In this document: one piece after another, positions 53,748 to 64,000 of the stretch
Layout of the letters: each line of letters starts with the position of its first letter
Position numbering within the stretch: the first letter of the stretch is position 1
Source of the DNA: Desulfomonile tiedjei
Lineage (GTDB): Bacteria > Desulfobacterota > Desulfomonilia > Desulfomonilales > Desulfomonilaceae
Direction of reading: 5' to 3'
Assembly: GCA_016218715.1 (NCBI GenBank)
Contig: JACRDG010000101.1
Coordinates: 1 to 64,000, forward strand
DNA length: 64,000 nucleotides
The notes under the pieces: model-generated
The model's database searches: none
Told to the model about the DNA's origin: nothing
What the model saw: the letters and a program-made list of their open reading frames with translations, nothing else
Program-made: the position numbers and the translations under genes

Positions 53748-55886
53748 CTAGCGCTCTGCGTCTTCCATCTTTTTCAGCGCTTCGAGACAGGCGGGTGCCT
53801 GTTTGTACGGTCCAGGCTTTTGCCAGACAGGGTCGGTGTACCGGTCGTGGCAGGGGAGGCATGGAGCGATCCCGACGATTTTAGCGAGTTCTTCGCGGTT
53901 GAATCCCCGAGAAAGCTTGTGGGACGTTCCCTGAAGGATGGTTCCCTCGGTGTCGACCACCGCGTCTATCGGGTAGGGGATGTTCAATCCTGAAGACGCG
54001 GAATCATATATGGGCTCCACGTGGAGTTTGTTGGAGCCGGCCTCCCGGGTGAGCCGCCCGTCTCCCAGTCCGAGCGCCTTCGGATCGAGATGACAGTCGA
54101 TGCAGCGGGGGACTTCCGTTCGGGTCGTGTGTGGGTGAGTCGGCGCCATAGCTATGGAAGATCGGCCGTTTTTGAGCTGCATGATCTTGGAGTCATAGTC
54201 ACCGACGACGTTGCCGCGAGCGTCGATCACCGTGTTCCACACCTGGCAGCCGGGAACGAGGATGCCGACCTTGCCGAGGGAGTTGATCCCATAGATGTGC
54301 CGGTCGAACCTGAAGAAGCCGCGGCCCTCCGCCCAGCGCCCGTCGGTGTTTTTCCCGGTGACGTGGTCTGTTCCCTGGTGACCGAAATCGAGGACCTGGT
54401 GGCATCCGTAACACTGCGGGCTCCAGGCGCTGTGACACGCGTCGCATTCGAGGCGGCCATGGCCCGCTATCGCGTGCGCGTCCCGCTTGCCCGTGATGAC
54501 ACGAACCGGATGCTCCTTTCCCGAGAGCTTGGACGTGAGGCTGAACCCCTTCTCGGTCAGCCGTACATGGGGGAGCGGCCGACCTTTAGACGTCTGTAGA
54601 ATGGTATCTCCTTCGGTGAGCTTAAGAAATGGAGAGCTTCTCATCAGTGTTTGAACCAGGGGATCGTGCGCGCTGGCTTTCATGGTACGCGGAGGCAGGC
54701 CCGAGGCTCCGTGACAGTCTTCGCATCGGATTTCGATCTGATCCTTCATGTGTCGGTAGACGGTTCCGTCTCCCATGGTGTCCTGGCCGGTGTGGCAATC
54801 GATGCACCCCATCCCTTTTTCGTGGTGTACGTCCGGAACCAGCTTCCAGAAGAATCTGTCGTCACTGAGGGTTTCGGGGTTCTCTCCTCCTTGGACGAGG
54901 GGCGTGCCGTCCTGGGAGCTTTCCATCTGCCCATGGTAGTTCAGACCCGTCCGCGCGCTGCGGTTGTGACAGTTTCGGCATTGCTCGTCCGGAATGCGGT
55001 TGGTTATGGTATGGCTTGTCGCGTGGCCGGGTTCGTCGCGCTTGATCGTCGGGTCGCCTCCCCGATACAGTCCTCCTTCATTGTACGGCGCATGGCAGGC
55101 CGGGCAACCCTCCTGCCGCCCCATCTTCTCCCGGTGCCGGGGTGACCAGAGATGGCAGGCCGCGCAAAACTTTCGAAAATGGCTCGCCGCATAATCAGCA
55201 TCTCCGCCCAACCCGGACTCGGCAGGTATCGAGTGGAGCGTGGTCCGGCCGTCTGAGACCGACCTGATCGCGTATGGTGAGGTGCTGTCCTCTGAGAGGC
55301 CCCACTGGAACCGGAGGGTCCCTATGATGCCCGCATTGGTGGCCATCAAGGCCCGAGGCACGTTCTCGACCCGGTTGAGTAACGGATGCGCTCGCTCTGA
55401 GTGGCACGACCCGACTACTGCCTTGCTGCTCCCGCAGCTAACCTCCGCCAGGTCAAGCCGCGCGGGGTTTTTTCCACCGCGCAGCCCGCGATGAGCGCCG
55501 GCCACAGTCAAATCCGGGCCGTTTCCTCCGTGGCACATGACACAGCCGAATACCGAATTCGGGTGTGATGCCGACAGATCCTCGATTCCCTCATGGCACG
55601 TCAGGCACCGTTCCGGCGGGAGTCTTCCTCCGAAAGGTTTGATCTCGATGATCTCGGGGACCTTCTTCTTGAGTGCGGCGATTTGATCGAGAAGGTCTTG
55701 ACGTTCGTTTTGGGGGCCGGCTTCTGAAAGCTTCTGTTCCAGTCGCTGAACCGCGAGAGCGATCCCCCTTTCCTGGAACAGCTTCCACTCAGGGTGAAGG
55801 CTCCGATACTCGACATAGGCCAGAACGCATACCAGGAAAACGACGATGAGCAGGGCGACCGAGGAGGCCCGCGATCCCGTGCTCAT
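53748..55886 (-). CDS. Membrane-anchored multiheme cytochrome c (11 CxxCH, one CX9CH candidate)
   Basis: The product is 712 residues from the ATG at 55886, which overlaps the upstream stop by 4 bases (ATGA). One N-terminal membrane helix (SVALLIVVFLVCVLAYV) anchors it in the periplasm. A coiled coil (~45-75) follows. Eleven CxxCH haem sites are seen: CLTCH, CVMCH, CAACH, CPACH, CRNCH, CIDCH, CEDCH, CDACH, CYGCH, CIDCH, CLPCH. A further CGSSKAVVGSCH near residue 150 has nine residues between cysteines and may bind a twelfth haem. It is translationally coupled to the subunit IV-like gene, suggesting a membrane quinol-oxidising electron-transfer unit. No closer assignment is possible. Confidence 0.9.
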   Translation of the reverse strand: MSTGSRASSVALLIVVFLVCVLAYVEYRSLHPEWKLFQERGIALAVQRLEQKLSEAGPQNERQDLLDQIAALKKKVPEIIEIKPFGGRLPPERCLTCHEGIEDLSASHPNSVFGCVMCHGGNGPDLTVAGAHRGLRGGKNPARLDLAEVSCGSSKAVVGSCHSERAHPLLNRVENVPRALMATNAGIIGTLRFQWGLSEDSTSPYAIRSVSDGRTTLHSIPAESGLGGDADYAASHFRKFCAACHLWSPRHREKMGRQEGCPACHAPYNEGGLYRGGDPTIKRDEPGHATSHTITNRIPDEQCRNCHNRSARTGLNYHGQMESSQDGTPLVQGGENPETLSDDRFFWKLVPDVHHEKGMGCIDCHTGQDTMGDGTVYRHMKDQIEIRCEDCHGASGLPPRTMKASAHDPLVQTLMRSSPFLKLTEGDTILQTSKGRPLPHVRLTEKGFSLTSKLSGKEHPVRVITGKRDAHAIAGHGRLECDACHSAWSPQCYGCHQVLDFGHQGTDHVTGKNTDGRWAEGRGFFRFDRHIYGINSLGKVGILVPGCQVWNTVIDARGNVVGDYDSKIMQLKNGRSSIAMAPTHPHTTRTEVPRCIDCHLDPKALGLGDGRLTREAGSNKLHVEPIYDSASSGLNIPYPIDAVVDTEGTILQGTSHKLSRGFNREELAKIVGIAPCLPCHDRYTDPVWQKPGPYKQAPACLEALKKMEDAER

Positions 55887-56353
55887 CCCAGGGAACTCCA
55901 CACGGTCAGCATCACTGAAGTGATGGTGATACCAAAGAAGGTCGCGAACGTGAGCATTCTCCTGCGCGGCGAAACAAACGGCAGGAGTCCCAGTAAAACC
56001 AGAGCGGTCATCGGAACGACGATCCCAGCGGACAAGGGGGGCAGAAAACGCAGCAACTGCTGAATCCCGACGAAGATCCACGGGGCTTTCACATGACTGG
56101 CCGGGATTCCTGCCGGATCCGCGGGACCTGCCAGCGGCGCGTCTGAAAGCGCCGAGATCAGGCAGACCGCGGTCAGTGCAATCAACGCGGCGAATGCTTC
56201 CTTGTGAACGAGATGGGGCACGCTCGGAACCCTATCCGGTCTGGCGGGTGTTTCCGGGAATGCGGCTGATTCACCGGGCCGTGCATCAGCACCGGGATTG
56301 AGATCCTCGCGAATTACCATTCCTGCATCCGGGGGAAAATCCCCCAATACCAT
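55883..56353 (-). CDS. Cytochrome b6f subunit IV-like (cytochrome b C-terminal) membrane protein
   Basis: The product is 156 residues. After a ~45-residue soluble, proline-rich start, three membrane helices follow (AFAALIALTAVCLISAL, SAGIVVPMTALVLLGLLPF, MLTFATFFGITITSVMLTV). Between helices 1 and 2, SHVKAPWIFVGIQQLLRFLP corresponds to the quinol-site loop of cytochrome b (PEWY replaced by APWI). This arrangement matches subunit IV of cytochrome b6f-type complexes. The haem-binding N-terminal cytochrome b and Rieske subunits are not next to it. It overlaps the multiheme cytochrome start by 4 bases. ATG 56353 may be replaced by the ATG 11 codons later. Confidence 0.8.
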   Translation of the reverse strand: MVLGDFPPDAGMVIREDLNPGADARPGESAAFPETPARPDRVPSVPHLVHKEAFAALIALTAVCLISALSDAPLAGPADPAGIPASHVKAPWIFVGIQQLLRFLPPLSAGIVVPMTALVLLGLLPFVSPRRRMLTFATFFGITITSVMLTVWSSLG

Positions 56354-58530: not shown

Positions 58531-61014
58531 ATGGTGCCCGGAAACAGGGTCGTTCAAATCCTCTGTGACTCCATCGGCAGCCAGGCTGCCCCAGCCCGCG
58601 ATCCGGAGTCGTTCTACCGGTCGGCTGTGGCAGCGGTGGTTGGCGCACTCCTCGCGCCCAGGGAAGCCACGCCCGTGGAGCCCGAGTTCGCCGGACTTGT
58701 GCGAGAGGCGCGCGAAATCGGCCCAGTAAGCCCTGAACAGGTGGGAGAGCTGTACGAATACCTGCGCGGGTTCAGGTTCGTTGTCAAACCGGGCGAAGCT
58801 CCTCGTTTGGCCGCCAGCCAGCGAGGCAGACGGAATCAGGGGCTGTTCTACACGCCGCAGCCGGTGGTGGAGCACATTGTAAAAACCTCGCTCGATGCGC
58901 TCGCCATTCCCGATCCCGCGGAGTACCTCGACCTGAGGCTCCTCGACCCTGCGGTGGGGACCGGAACCTTCCTCCTTGAAGCGCTGGACGAGCTGAGCCG
59001 GCGGGTCCTGGGGCACGGTGCGTACAGCAATGGCCCGATCGCGCAGAGGATCCGTCAGATCCACGGGGAAACGGTCGCTGCCGCTCGCGATCTCGGAGCT
59101 TGCTCTGAACCCGACCTCGAGACGTGCGTCCGGCTCCACATCATGAGCAAGTGCCTGTACGGCGTAGATCTCGACCCTGTAGCAGTGAGGATCGCGAAGG
59201 CAGCGCTCAAGAACAGGGCGTATGGCGGTCAGGCGTGCGTCCCGGGAATCGAGCCTGCCATCCGGGTGGGGAACGCTCTTGTGGGACACGGCGGCGAAGC
59301 TCCGATTCCCGCGTCACGGCTCGCAGCCGATCGGCACCACGCGACCGCATATCTCGGCACGAAGCCCGTTCGTGCGGAATCCATCGCTCGATGGCGTGCG
59401 GAACAGAACATCCTTCACTGGCCTCTGGAATATCCGGAAATCTTCCGGGAACGCGGCGGTTTTGACTGTATCGTCGGGAACCCGCCGTACGAGATTCTTT
59501 CGGTGAAGGAATCCGGTATTGCCGGGCGACGGCGCGAACAAGCCTATTTCCGCTCGATCTACCGCACCTGTCAGGGCAAGATAAACACCTATCGGCTCAT
59601 GACCGAACGGGCGCTTACGCTCCTGCGAGACGGAGGGGTGCTCGGTTTCATTGTCCCCGCGACGCTTTTGGCCGACACCACCGCGGAAAAACTCCGCCGC
59701 ATGATCCTCGACGAGTCGGAAATTAAAGGGGCGCTGGTAATCCCGGAGAAAGCCCAAGTCTTTGTCGGGGTCACCCAGGCTCTGTTGATCCTGATCGCCC
59801 GGAAAGGCGGGCCCACCCGACGAGTAGCGCCTTCGCTATGGCAGGGGACCGGACCAGTCACCGGCACGAGGGAAGTCTGCATAAGCCGCAGGCTCATCGA
59901 GCGGGCAGGGGGCCGCATCCCCATCCTCAGGTCAGAGGAAGAAAAGACCCTGCTGGAACGGCTCATGGAGCACACACCGTTCCGCGGGGACGAACGCGAC
60001 GTCCCGGCAGGACTTGTCCATCAGGGCGAGGTGAATCTTACCGTGGACCGCGCGTTCATTACGGAACTCAGAACCGACTGTCCCCTCGTTCGGGGTGAAC
60101 ACGTTATGCCGCTACGAGTGAACCATCCGTCCCGCAGGGAAGGGCGGCTGGATTGGGTGCTCCCCGAGCTCGTCCGGCTCAGGTGCCAGCAGAGCCGGCC
60201 GCCACGACGGCAAGGGCTGCTACAGGGGCGCCCCGCCCGCTCTCACGGCTCGTTTGCTCCGTGGGAGGAGCCGCGCATCGTGCTCGGGCGAGTGGTGAAC
60301 ATGGACACCGATCGACGGCTCAAAGCCGCGGCCGTTCCGGCCGGGGTGTTTCTCGGGGATATGACCAACTTCATCTGCCGCCTCACCGTTCCCGAGAACT
60401 ACCTGCTCGGGCTGCTCAATTCACGGCTTCTCAACTGGCGCATCAAGCTGACCAGCACGAACAACTATCTCTCCGCCGCGGAGATCGAGGCGCTCCCGGT
60501 GCCGCGAATTTCCCCGACGGAATTACCGGAAAACCTACTCGCCGACGTGAAGAGGCAGTTCCAAGCACTAGTGGCCGGCGCCGCGGAGCGGTACGATTGC
60601 ACAATCGAGCAAGGAGTCCCCGCGCCCTCACCCCGACCCTCTCCCATGGGGAGAGGGAATGGAGCCTCTCCCAAAGGGAGAGGGAAATCGCCGGCAAGAT
60701 GCCGGCGCCACTGGGAGTCCCCACTTCCGATGGGAGAGGGTGAGGGGTGGTCAGGTTCACTATCCGAGCAAGAAACCGTGTCAATTGCAGAATGGATCTC
60801 GCACTTAGCACGTCTCCTTGAGCCAGTTCCCGGACGTCAGAAGCAACCGCTTCTCGCTGCCTTCATCGAGTTGACCGTTGCGGCCATCCGGCAAGTTCCC
60901 GCAGGCGAAGATTCGCTGGCAGGCAGCGGCAATCTCTGGAATGCACTCGATGCCGCGGTTCTGATGCTCTTCGGATGCGAAGCCTTCGCGAACCTGCCCT
61001 CTCAACGGCGCTGA
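58531..61014 (+). CDS. Eco57I-type adenine-specific DNA methylase carrying an in-frame repeat insertion
   Basis: The product is 827 residues. The N-terminal helical region (to ~100) is followed by a class gamma N6-adenine methylase: motif X/I QGLFYTPQPVVEHIV and LLDPAVGTGTFLLEAL near residues 108-150, and the catalytic motif IV DCIVGNPPYEIL near 312-323. A TaqI-like specificity region follows (LGDMTNFICRL, LLGLLNSRLLNWRIK). No nuclease motif is seen, so it is probably a solitary methylase or the modification part of a system. Residues ~697-745 are not protein-like: they are translated repeat DNA (PRPSPMGRGN, PLPMGEGEGW). The reading frame is kept. The flanking genes are unrelated. Confidence 0.85.
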   Translation: MVPGNRVVQILCDSIGSQAAPARDPESFYRSAVAAVVGALLAPREATPVEPEFAGLVREAREIGPVSPEQVGELYEYLRGFRFVVKPGEAPRLAASQRGRRNQGLFYTPQPVVEHIVKTSLDALAIPDPAEYLDLRLLDPAVGTGTFLLEALDELSRRVLGHGAYSNGPIAQRIRQIHGETVAAARDLGACSEPDLETCVRLHIMSKCLYGVDLDPVAVRIAKAALKNRAYGGQACVPGIEPAIRVGNALVGHGGEAPIPASRLAADRHHATAYLGTKPVRAESIARWRAEQNILHWPLEYPEIFRERGGFDCIVGNPPYEILSVKESGIAGRRREQAYFRSIYRTCQGKINTYRLMTERALTLLRDGGVLGFIVPATLLADTTAEKLRRMILDESEIKGALVIPEKAQVFVGVTQALLILIARKGGPTRRVAPSLWQGTGPVTGTREVCISRRLIERAGGRIPILRSEEEKTLLERLMEHTPFRGDERDVPAGLVHQGEVNLTVDRAFITELRTDCPLVRGEHVMPLRVNHPSRREGRLDWVLPELVRLRCQQSRPPRRQGLLQGRPARSHGSFAPWEEPRIVLGRVVNMDTDRRLKAAAVPAGVFLGDMTNFICRLTVPENYLLGLLNSRLLNWRIKLTSTNNYLSAAEIEALPVPRISPTELPENLLADVKRQFQALVAGAAERYDCTIEQGVPAPSPRPSPMGRGNGASPKGRGKSPARCRRHWESPLPMGEGEGWSGSLSEQETVSIAEWISHLARLLEPVPGRQKQPLLAAFIELTVAAIRQVPAGEDSLAGSGNLWNALDAAVLMLFGCEAFANLPSQRR
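60628..60752. repeat. Composite palindromic repeat inserted inside the methylase gene
   Basis: The ends CCCTCACCCCGACCCTCTCC and GGGAGAGGGTGAGGGG are inverted repeats. Internal short palindromes include CTCTCCCATGGGGAGAG and CTCTCCCAAAGGGAGAG. In the centre is a fragment of the family A core, CGCCGGCAAGATGCCGGCGC. Its length preserves the reading frame of the methylase. This 'CCCTCACCCC' element is a type widespread in intergenic bacterial DNA, so its position inside a gene is unusual. Confidence 0.85.
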
Positions 61015-61041: not shown

Positions 61042-61077
61042 CTGGGGGGAACCTTTTTTCAAAGAGGTTCTCTCCAG
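61042..61077. terminator. Hairpin between the methylase and the Sec-thioredoxin gene
   Basis: CTGGGGGGAACCTTTTTT and AAAGAGGTTCTCTCCAG form a long imperfect stem related to the hairpin at 53679-53711. It lies between two convergent genes and can end both transcripts. Confidence 0.7.
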
Positions 61078-61105: not shown

Positions 61106-61582
61106 TCAGTGCCTGTGTTGGAGGCAGTTTTGTTTGAGGGTTCTGGCTTCAGGAGCGGGTCGGCTGTAAGGGTACGAAGACAGGATCAGGTCGAGCATGA
61201 CGAGCGACCGGTTGAAGGCCCGGTGGGCGTAATCCCCCTTGGCTATGCCGAGCATAAGCGATGGGATGAATTCTTCAGGCGGGAGAAAGCCGACGATCCG
61301 GTGATGTTCGATGCCGTCGCCGTCCAGGATGACGATAGTGGGGGTGGCCTCGACACGGAACTGCGCGGCCAGAGCGCTCCGACCGGTAATGTCCTCGCGG
61401 TGCGCGATCATGAAGCGGCCGATGAAGTCTACGGTGCGATGGTCGGGATACGTAACCGCATCCATCTGTCTGCACGCGGGTCAGCCGGGATTGTAGAAAT
61501 CGAGCAGCAAATGCTTGTCCTGGACTCTCGCCATAGGAAGAGCCAACCCCCAATCCGACTCCCATCGAATCGTTTTCGCCAT
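61106..61582 (-). CDS. Thioredoxin-fold selenoprotein (in-frame TGA read as selenocysteine, UxxC)
   Basis: An ATG at 61582 opens a frame with a single in-frame TGA at 61483-61481, then continues to 61106, giving 158 residues. Around the TGA the translation is FYNPG-U-PACRQMD: a thioredoxin active site in which the first cysteine of CxxC is replaced by the TGA codon, second cysteine kept. Upstream MAKTIRWESDWGLALPMA and the strand KHLLLDFYN, and downstream FRVEATPTIVILDG with the cis-proline, complete the fold. Directly after the TGA a hairpin (CCGCGT/ATGCGG) could act as the SECIS. No signal peptide. It is 183 bases downstream of hdrB on the same strand. The ATG lacks a strong ribosome site, so the start is tentative. 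Confidence 0.85.
61455..61480 (-). promoter_or_regulatory. Candidate bacterial SECIS hairpin
   Basis: On the minus strand, immediately after the TGA, CCGCGT and ATGCGG form a 6-bp stem, with CA/UG pairs inside and a small purine-rich loop (GACAGA). Position fits a selenocysteine insertion element, though the loop is slightly closer to the TGA than in the best-studied enterobacterial elements. No folding program was run. Confidence 0.55.
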
Positions 61583-61764
61583 GATCTTATCGCGCTTGTA
61601 GGAAAGGTCCGGGGACGCAGAAAGCCCGCGTGGCTCTTAGAGACGCATGGTAGACCCGGGGGCACTCTGGGCGCCCCCAGGCTCGTACAACCACTGCTCG
61701 GTCCGTCAGGCCCGGGACTGCAATTCAATCGAAGCGAATCGTGCCCTGGCGGGCCGCGACGCTC

Positions 61765-62616
61765 TTACAGAAGCCCTTTTCCGGAAAGCATGCGTTCCGG
61801 AGAGATAATGTGCTTGCTGAACCAGGTTCGGGCATGCGGGTTCTGCAGCGCGACCCCCATCAACTCGGGGAGGAACAGAACGGGCACGTGGTAAACCTTC
61901 CCCGTCTCTTTGGAGATGTCCGGCTGCCTCGTGTCGAGGTTGGCCTGGCACATGGGACAGAAGGTGATAATCGCATCCGCGCCGACGGTCTTGGCCATGT
62001 CGAGGATCTTGCCGGTAAGCTTGAACACGATTTCCTTCTTGGTCAGAGCCAGCGAGCCACCGCAACAGTCGGTCTTGTAGGGCCAGGTCAACACTTCCGC
62101 GCCCATGGCCTGCAGCACACGGTCCATCTGCGTCGGATTTTCCGCGTCCTCGGGTTGCACCACGTCGGGCGGACGAACGGCATAACAGCCGTAGTACGGT
62201 ACGACCTTCAGCCCTTCCAGGGGCTTTGCGAGGCGCTCTTTCAGCTTCGCACGCACTTCCTTGAGATCGAACATGTCCATGCCGGACAGGATCTTGATGT
62301 CACCTTTGAAAGGAAAGCGGGCCTGCAGCTCTTTCTCCTTCAAGATGCGCATGGACGCCGCCTTCATCCTCACATGGCAGCCTGCGCAGGGAGCGACGAC
62401 ATCTTTGCCGATCCGCTCCGCGGTCATAAGGTCCTTGGCAGGGAGCGCGGTTTCGAGGAACTCGTCCACCATGTGGGCCGAAGACGCACCGCAACACGTC
62501 CAATCGGGAAGCTCGCGCAGGGTGACGTCCAGCTTCTCGGCCACGCTTCTGAAGGACTCGTCAAGCTCCAGGGCAGAGCCTTTCAAGGTGCATCCGGGGT
62601 AGTAAGTAAATTCCAT
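61765..62616 (-). CDS. hdrB: Heterodisulfide reductase subunit B-like (HdrB)
   Basis: The product is 283 residues from the ATG at 62616, which follows GAGAGGTTTGAC; upstream residues are not conserved in style. It has two CCG domains: YYPGCTLKG with WTCCGASSAH and APCAGCHVR, then YYGCYAVRPP with TDCCGGSLAL and FCPMCQAN. Together they supply the ligands of the two non-cubane [4Fe-4S] clusters of HdrB, where disulfides are reduced. All the key cysteines are present. It is third in the hdrA-hdrC-hdrB order on the minus strand, 118 bases after hdrC. Confidence 0.93.
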   Translation of the reverse strand: MEFTYYPGCTLKGSALELDESFRSVAEKLDVTLRELPDWTCCGASSAHMVDEFLETALPAKDLMTAERIGKDVVAPCAGCHVRMKAASMRILKEKELQARFPFKGDIKILSGMDMFDLKEVRAKLKERLAKPLEGLKVVPYYGCYAVRPPDVVQPEDAENPTQMDRVLQAMGAEVLTWPYKTDCCGGSLALTKKEIVFKLTGKILDMAKTVGADAIITFCPMCQANLDTRQPDISKETGKVYHVPVLFLPELMGVALQNPHARTWFSKHIISPERMLSGKGLL

Positions 62617-62734
62617 GTCAAACCTCTCGGCCTTTCGTAACCGTTCACAGGGGTCGAGACCGTACGGGAACGCTGCCCGCAGGTCCGGGGCCACGCCGCC
62701 ACCCCCTCGGGGATAGCGTGCGGAATGATCTCGA

Positions 62735-63283
62735 TCACTTCATCGAGGACTTCTTGAACAAATCCTTCACTTCGCTGCGACTGGCAGCCCAGTGCGGGAT
62801 CAGGTGGATCTTGCCCTTCTTGAACATCTGCATGCCCAGTTCCATGTCGTCGAAGTACGTCCCGGTTTTCATCTTGTACATACCGATGAGCGACAGCTCG
62901 TGCACTCGGCCGAACATGCGCACGTTCTTCATGAAGACGTTGTGGAACATCGGGACCGGGGACTTGGTATCGCCATAACTCTGCTGGAACATCTGGTGGC
63001 GGATAGGGTCCAGGAGAGTCGGCACATCGATTCCGTTCGGGCATCTCGCGCCGCAGGTATGGCAAGTCAGGCAGAGCCAGATACTCTTGGAAGCTATGAT
63101 GGTTTCGGCTCGGCCCAGCACCGCAAGGCGCACAAGCTGGTGGGGCAACAGATCCATCTCCGGGGCCACAGGGCATCCCGCGGAGCATTTGCCGCACTGG
63201 AAACACTGATTGAGGATGGAGGCCAGCTCGCCACTGGGAAGTTTGACTCCTCCGGCTGACACTCTCATGCTGGATTCCTGCAT
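62735..63283 (-). CDS. hdrC: Heterodisulfide reductase subunit C-like (HdrC)
   Basis: The product is 182 residues from the ATG at 63283, preceded by GAGGTGAGAGAA. Two [4Fe-4S] ferredoxin motifs lie near residues 27-38 (CFQCGKCSAGCP) and 69-80 (CLTCHTCGARCP), each with the CxxCxxCxxxCP order. It carries electrons between HdrA and HdrB. The C-terminal half is helical and contains several methionine-rich segments. It lies 80 bases after the hdrA stop and 118 bases before hdrB. Confidence 0.93.
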   Translation of the reverse strand: MQESSMRVSAGGVKLPSGELASILNQCFQCGKCSAGCPVAPEMDLLPHQLVRLAVLGRAETIIASKSIWLCLTCHTCGARCPNGIDVPTLLDPIRHQMFQQSYGDTKSPVPMFHNVFMKNVRMFGRVHELSLIGMYKMKTGTYFDDMELGMQMFKKGKIHLIPHWAASRSEVKDLFKKSSMK

Positions 63284-63363
63284 TTCTCTCACCTCATGGG
63301 GGACCGTTCCCGCAGGGTGCGGCAACGATCGGGCATTATGTTGACCTTTGTTTAGGTTCGTTC

Positions 63364-64000
63364 CTATATCGCCTTGGCGGTCAGCAGCGTGTCGATCTCT
63401 TCGAACACCTGCTCGTCGGTAAAATGCGCAAGCTGGATCGCCTTACCCGGACAGACCGAAGCGCATATACCGCAACCCTGACAGAGCGCGGTGGTGATCT
63501 CCGCCGCGTGATCGTCGTTGATGAATGGTGCGCCGTACGGGCAGAGTCTCACGCAGGTCAGGCAGACCGCGCACTTTTCCGGGTCCACCTTCGAGACCAC
63601 GCCCGGGAAGGTCATCTCCTTCTTGCTCAGGATGAGAGATGCCCGCTGAGCCGCAGCAGTTGCCTGTGCGAGGGCCTCGTCGATCGGCTTGGGATAGTGA
63701 GCCAGCCCTGCGAGGAAGACACCTTCCGTGGTGAAGTCCACCGGCCGCAGCTTCATATGGGCTTCCGCAAAGTAACCGCTCGTCGCCACGGTCACCTTGA
63801 ACAGTTGGCCGAGCTCGCGATTGGTCTCCGCGGGCTCGATGGCTGCAGCGAGGGTCAGCACATCGGCGGGGATCGTGATGTCCTCGTCGATCACCGGGTC
63901 GCGCACCGTCACCTTGAGCTGGTTCCCGCTGGCTTCTACCAGAGGTTTGGCTTCGGGATCGTACTTGATGTAGATGGTCCCTGCACGCCGCGACGCGGTG
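63364..64000 (-). CDS. hdrA: Heterodisulfide reductase subunit A-like (HdrA), C-terminal part
   Basis: The frame is open from the right edge to the stop at 63364, about 211 residues of the C-terminal part. The visible part starts in the FAD-binding domain (RRAGTIYIKYDPEAK, VTVRDPVIDEDI, ADVLTLAAAIEP). It ends with two [4Fe-4S] ferredoxin motifs near the C-terminus (CAVCLTCVRLCPYG and CQGCGICASVCPGK). HdrA is the flavin-bifurcating hub that passes electrons to HdrC and HdrB. The N-terminal half, where deltaproteobacterial HdrA proteins sometimes contain selenocysteine, lies outside the window. Confidence 0.93.
   Translation of the reverse strand, partial: TASRRAGTIYIKYDPEAKPLVEASGNQLKVTVRDPVIDEDITIPADVLTLAAAIEPAETNRELGQLFKVTVATSGYFAEAHMKLRPVDFTTEGVFLAGLAHYPKPIDEALAQATAAAQRASLILSKKEMTFPGVVSKVDPEKCAVCLTCVRLCPYGAPFINDDHAAEITTALCQGCGICASVCPGKAIQLAHFTDEQVFEEIDTLLTAKAI

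Follow-up and report, generated by a model that had tools for sequence, protein, structure and literature searches.

Does the single in-frame TGA in a short thioredoxin-like gene of Desulfomonile tiedjei end translation, or is it read as selenocysteine (Sec)? The gene lies on the reverse strand of the window analyzed here, the first 64,000 nucleotides of contig JACRDG010000101.1 (C65 below), which belongs to a 5.55-Mb draft genome of 124 contigs. An earlier note, made from the sequence alone, had proposed a hidden selenoprotein at this locus, and we followed up that proposal by computational analysis. The coordinates of the features discussed are collected in Table 1.

An open frame with one TGA at the active site

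The frame from 61582 to 61106 comprises 159 codons, starting with ATG and ending with a terminal TGA at 61108-61106, and its only internal stop is the TGA at codon 34; this confirms that the TGA sits exactly where the first active-site cysteine is expected (NPG-U-PAC) and that the second cysteine is intact. As the earlier note had also anticipated, ordinary annotation would recover only a fragment from after the active site; under table 11, the single ORF obtained is 119 amino acids long (61465-61106) and begins at codon 40. The sigma-70-like promoter scan of the gene region found none.

Table 1. Features of the selenoprotein locus and its surroundings (window positions)
Feature	Position	Strand	Remarks
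Predicted selenoprotein gene, full length	61106-61582	-	158 residues, predicted Sec at residue 34; short helical tail after the thioredoxin fold
In-frame TGA, predicted to be read as Sec (U34)	61481-61483	-	TGA in 93/93 distinct homologous segments; Cys (TGC/TGT) in 12 orthologues
Codon of resolving cysteine C37 (UxxC)	61472-61474	-	Invariant in groups A1 and A2
SECIS hairpin GGAUGCG-GUUA-CGUAUCC	61446-61463	-	7-bp stem, loop GUUA; stem starts 17 nt after TGA; 24 nt from UGA to loop
TP motif T80-P81	61340-61345	-	cis-Proline position; invariant in A1 and A2
Terminator-like hairpin	61042-61077	.	16 pairs, about 30 nt past the gene's stop codon; from a simple pattern scan that gave it for the + strand only; element nearly symmetrical
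Heterodisulfide-reductase-like genes	61765-63999	-	CCG domain, 4Fe-4S proteins; a 1,500-aa frame runs upstream beyond the window

The earlier note had held that an open frame conserved across a stop at this very codon was unlikely to be due to chance. This stood where homologues are concerned but not for the bare motif, as a TGA near a cysteine codon in an open frame is by itself not rare: 32 sites in the window, the focal one included, pass a plain filter for such frames (CxxU, UxxC, CxU, or UxC), and we read the 31 others as chance occurrences. What exceeds chance is the homology that runs through the TGA. All 30 strong full-length matches found in 99 related genomes contain exactly one TGA each, at the focal codon, and five of them come from the host genome itself (contigs C65, C43, C87, C115, and C9). 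A contig scan of named genomes gave TGA at the same codon in 80/80 homologous loci (72 counted by motif and 8 read by eye), which according to the record titles belong to deltaproteobacterial groups, Geobacteraceae, Nitrospirota, and others; the homologue motif reads LLDFFNPGUIGCQQMDAVTYP.

A pseudogene or a misassembly is therefore a poor explanation of the TGA. The assembly is a draft in many contigs, and the window gene lacks the C-terminal part of its longer relatives, but the same TGA recurs in the five paralogues of this genome and in more than 100 sequences from many genomes, and the short genes form one supported group in the tree (100/100) with five intact orthologues; we give this explanation next to no weight. 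On comparative grounds, we consider it very nearly certain that the gene encodes a selenoprotein, with Sec inserted at codon 34 by UGA read-through. The case for recoding is built on a conserved TGA, a conserved hairpin, orthologues with cysteine, and the presence of the machinery. In the mechanism that we propose, SelB carrying Sec-tRNA(UCA) would bind the hairpin that closely follows the UGA, and codon 34 would receive Sec without termination. The product would be a thioredoxin-fold protein of 158 residues, DsbD-gamma-like and with the active site U-P-A-C; its selenolate would attack a substrate disulfide, and C37 would resolve the mixed selenenylsulfide.

The hairpin after the TGA and the selenocysteine machinery

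The hairpin that the earlier note had seen after the TGA is real. Counted from the T of the TGA, positions 21-26 pair with 33-38, and the loop contains G28-U29. The model for bacterial SECIS elements (bSECIS) specifies a loop of 3 to 9 nt, a stem of 4 to 16 bp, a G at the first or second loop position, a spacing of 16 to 37 nt, and an MFE of -7.5 or lower, and it further gives the loop as N1-G-[G/U]-N-N2, with N1 pairing with N2 (PMC13188914). The focal hairpin lies within all of the numerical limits (loop of 4 nt with G first, stem of 7 bp, spacing of 24 nt, and -10.4 kcal/mol when folded in isolation, compared with -3.3 [SD, 2.2] for a synonymous null). An Rfam scan of the region returned no SECIS family, only chance-level matches, none of them above the cut-off.

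The six-pair stem is found in 91/93 distinct homologues, compared with 5.7 expected from synonymous recoding, and in 34/35 after clustering at 80% identity; no shifted stem register exceeds 3/93. Positions 23 and 36 covary as R23-Y36 (GAT..TAT to GGT..TAC), and the nucleotides N27 and N30, which flank the loop GU, can pair in 93/93 sequences by five pair types; neither result was reached in 5,000 permutations, a test that ignores relatedness, for which the clustered subset and the cysteine clade described below correct only in part. Folded alone, the 49 nt from the UGA onward show no unusual stability (z = -0.21) and favor a competing fold. Folding of a single sequence thus does not single out the hairpin, and it is the comparative evidence that carries the claim.

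The earlier note had named a search for selA, selB, selC, and selD as a check, and a genome devoid of them would have spoken against read-through. Profile searches of the host genome detected SelA (511 bits), SelB (384 bits, over the cut-off), and SelD (370 bits), and a tRNA-Sec with the anticodon UCA is also present. The selD gene (L056; G000 C85:75991-76908) has an in-frame TGA of its own (TAGUASKM), and SelD of this genome is likely itself a selenoprotein. SelB is over the cut-off in 19 of the 20 genomes with TGA forms of the gene, the exception being a genome that is 67% complete; as a correlate of the TGA form this is weak evidence, since SelB occurs in 86/99 related genomes and those with the cysteine form retain it too.

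Probable replacement of selenocysteine by cysteine in Geobacteraceae

Twelve orthologues from Geobacteraceae genomes (L177 and L180-L190) have TGC or TGT at the focal codon in an uninterrupted frame, so alignment with cysteine homologues, which the earlier note had suggested, places Cys opposite the TGA. These sequences form one clade nested among the Sec forms (100/97 in the tree), and for this reason it looks like there was one replacement of Sec by Cys in the Geobacteraceae. Among the Geobacteraceae sequences examined, the stem is present in 16/18 TGA forms versus 0/12 Cys forms, and the protein motif shifts from MDAVTYP to a MEEVTF-like sequence in the latter. Because the hairpin and MDAVTYP were lost together in the Cys clade, this motif is probably conserved in Sec forms largely owing to the RNA hairpin that lies within its codons. 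As a natural experiment on a bacterial SECIS element, the family is clean: the clade that replaced Sec with Cys also lost the hairpin.

The same alignments bear on the possibility that the UGA is an ordinary stop and that the true product is the ORF starting with the ATG at codon 40. This is what table 11 gives, and with ATG in 92/93 sequences, M40 hardly varies. However, every homologue conserves the N-terminal region in which the fold begins, and the frame of the Cys orthologues runs across the codon without a break. One short-subtype orthologue has CTG instead of ATG at codon 40, and a product starting there would, according to the structure model, lack the active site as well as the first strand. 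Homologues that also stopped at this point and restarted after it would have favored termination; instead, they read through. We find termination at codon 34 very improbable. Slightly less probable again is a reading in which a suppressor tRNA or an altered code makes the UGA specify cysteine or some other residue than Sec. Some orthologues do have Cys at the position, and some bacteria have UCA-anticodon tRNAs other than tRNA-Sec. Against this, the genome contains the full Sec machinery, only the TGA forms have retained the SelB-type hairpin, and UGA still serves as a terminator, being the final codon of many of the homologous genes. The preferred reading remains insertion of Sec at codon 34.

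Family, fold, and gene neighborhood of the predicted selenoprotein

The kind of protein has been met before. A selenoprotein family named "thiol:disulfide interchange protein" appears in a 2006 survey (PMC1794560), where its three members come from Syntrophus aciditrophicus, Geobacter metallireducens, and G. uraniumreducens. Reviews list it as PF13098 with a UxxC motif, with WP_011366075.1 as the exemplar (PMC13188914). The window protein shares this Pfam family and motif, its relatives are likewise found in Syntrophaceae and Geobacteraceae, and the sole PF13098 match with an in-frame TGA in Geobacter sp. AOG1 belongs to the family of the window gene; given this agreement in Pfam family, motif, and taxa, together with the AOG1 match, the window gene most likely belongs to the 2006 family.

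Within the family we distinguished three architectures: a long form with a TPR-like C-terminal part, a long form with an N-terminal signal-like segment, and a short form without the last part, represented by the window gene and four orthologues. All three occur among the five paralogues of the host genome. The other four UxxC thioredoxin-like selenoprotein genes are located at C43:72764-73210, C87:52248-52682, C115:38768-39193, and C9:115010-115435, and all have the same SECIS stem as the window gene; those on C115 and C9 have a signal-peptide-like N-terminus, and an exported long member of the family matches TPR_6. Unlike most members, the short subtype is only 158 amino acids long, has the active-site motif U-P/G-A-C, and has no C-terminal repeat. 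Among the 99 related genomes searched, it was found only in those of the window's own bacterial family.

The short subtype seems to be undescribed in the literature, whereas the kind of protein is already known in related bacteria; our literature search found no paper naming Desulfomonile with selenoproteins. No dedicated model exists in NCBIfam release 20, whose best matches are far below cut-off, and routine annotation would therefore likely truncate the window gene. With five paralogues of three architectures in one genome and no such model, many genes of this kind are probably mis-annotated, and the case shows that raw reading of the sequence can reveal a gene which would be cut short by standard annotation.

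The read-through protein matches Pfam Thioredoxin_2 (PF13098) with 49.6 bits (cut-off, 27) over residues 21 to 106, a span that crosses the TGA, in line with the observation in the earlier note of thioredoxin-like sequence on either side of it. AlphaFold, run with 45 homologues and Cys in place of Sec, predicted a thioredoxin fold with two extra C-terminal helices (mean pLDDT, 94.8; pTM, 0.90), in which helix 35-44 follows U34 and the redox motif lies at the start of the active-site helix. UxxC, D28, and T80-P81 are invariant across the A1 and A2 alignments; the role of the cis-proline at the TP position is established for thioredoxin folds, and D28 occupies the buried-Asp position of thioredoxins. 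The nearest PDB structure to the model is DsbD-gamma (1uc7; Foldseek E value, 1.7e-7), and in a profile comparison 2kuc ranked best, with DsbD close. The name "thioredoxin" given earlier thus holds for the fold, but the protein is better called a DsbD-gamma-like thioredoxin-fold protein. Fold and motif suggest thiol-disulfide oxidoreductase activity, and as no signal peptide is present, a cytoplasmic location is most likely.

The resemblance to known systems is partial in each case. The DsbD gamma domain agrees with the window protein in fold and in the place of its CxxC and of the segment that follows; DsbD is a periplasmic/membrane protein with CxxC, whereas the window protein is free-standing, has no export signal, and has Sec in its predicted active site. 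Its match to the DsbD model NF001419 reaches 40 bits against a cut-off of 330 and covers only the C-terminal domain, which places it outside DsbD, a family that includes the transmembrane domain. The best NCBIfam match, TsoB (NF045694), at 47.7 bits, is likewise far from its cut-off of 805 and does not confer membership; TsoB, a rhodanese/DsbD fusion-like selenoprotein, corresponds to the window protein in its C-terminal DsbD-like domain only, and its Sec motif is UxxxxU rather than UxxC. YbbN/CnoX, a chaperedoxin of thioredoxin and TPR parts, was a Foldseek match of the model (YbbN) and shares a thioredoxin fold with helical repeats; the likeness is structural, and the window protein has only two C-terminal helices after the fold.

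The earlier note had also pointed to hdrABC directly upstream. Genes resembling hdr, with Pfam CCG and Fer4 domains, are indeed there, at a gap of about 180 nt, but the link is weak: around the other short-subtype orthologues, hdr genes could not be recognized within 7 kb, and the most widely shared neighbor gene occurs at no more than 11 of the 94 loci (both compared by sequence clusters). As the neighborhood is not conserved, a functional hdr link was dropped. We consider it improbable that the short subtype represents a separate selenium-dependent thioredoxin with a partner of its own, here possibly the adjacent Hdr-like complex; if this were true, electrons from Hdr would flow to a selenocysteine thioredoxin. 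A GC-rich inverted repeat (GGGGGC...GCCCCC; window 61600-61764) separates the hdrB-like gene from the selenoprotein gene, and an Eco57I-type restriction-modification methylase of 827 aa (window 58531-61014, + strand) is convergent with the latter. Farther away, a 777-aa frame on the reverse strand (window 53748-56081) with many CxxCH motifs and a weak Cytochrom_c3_2 match apparently encodes a multihaem cytochrome.
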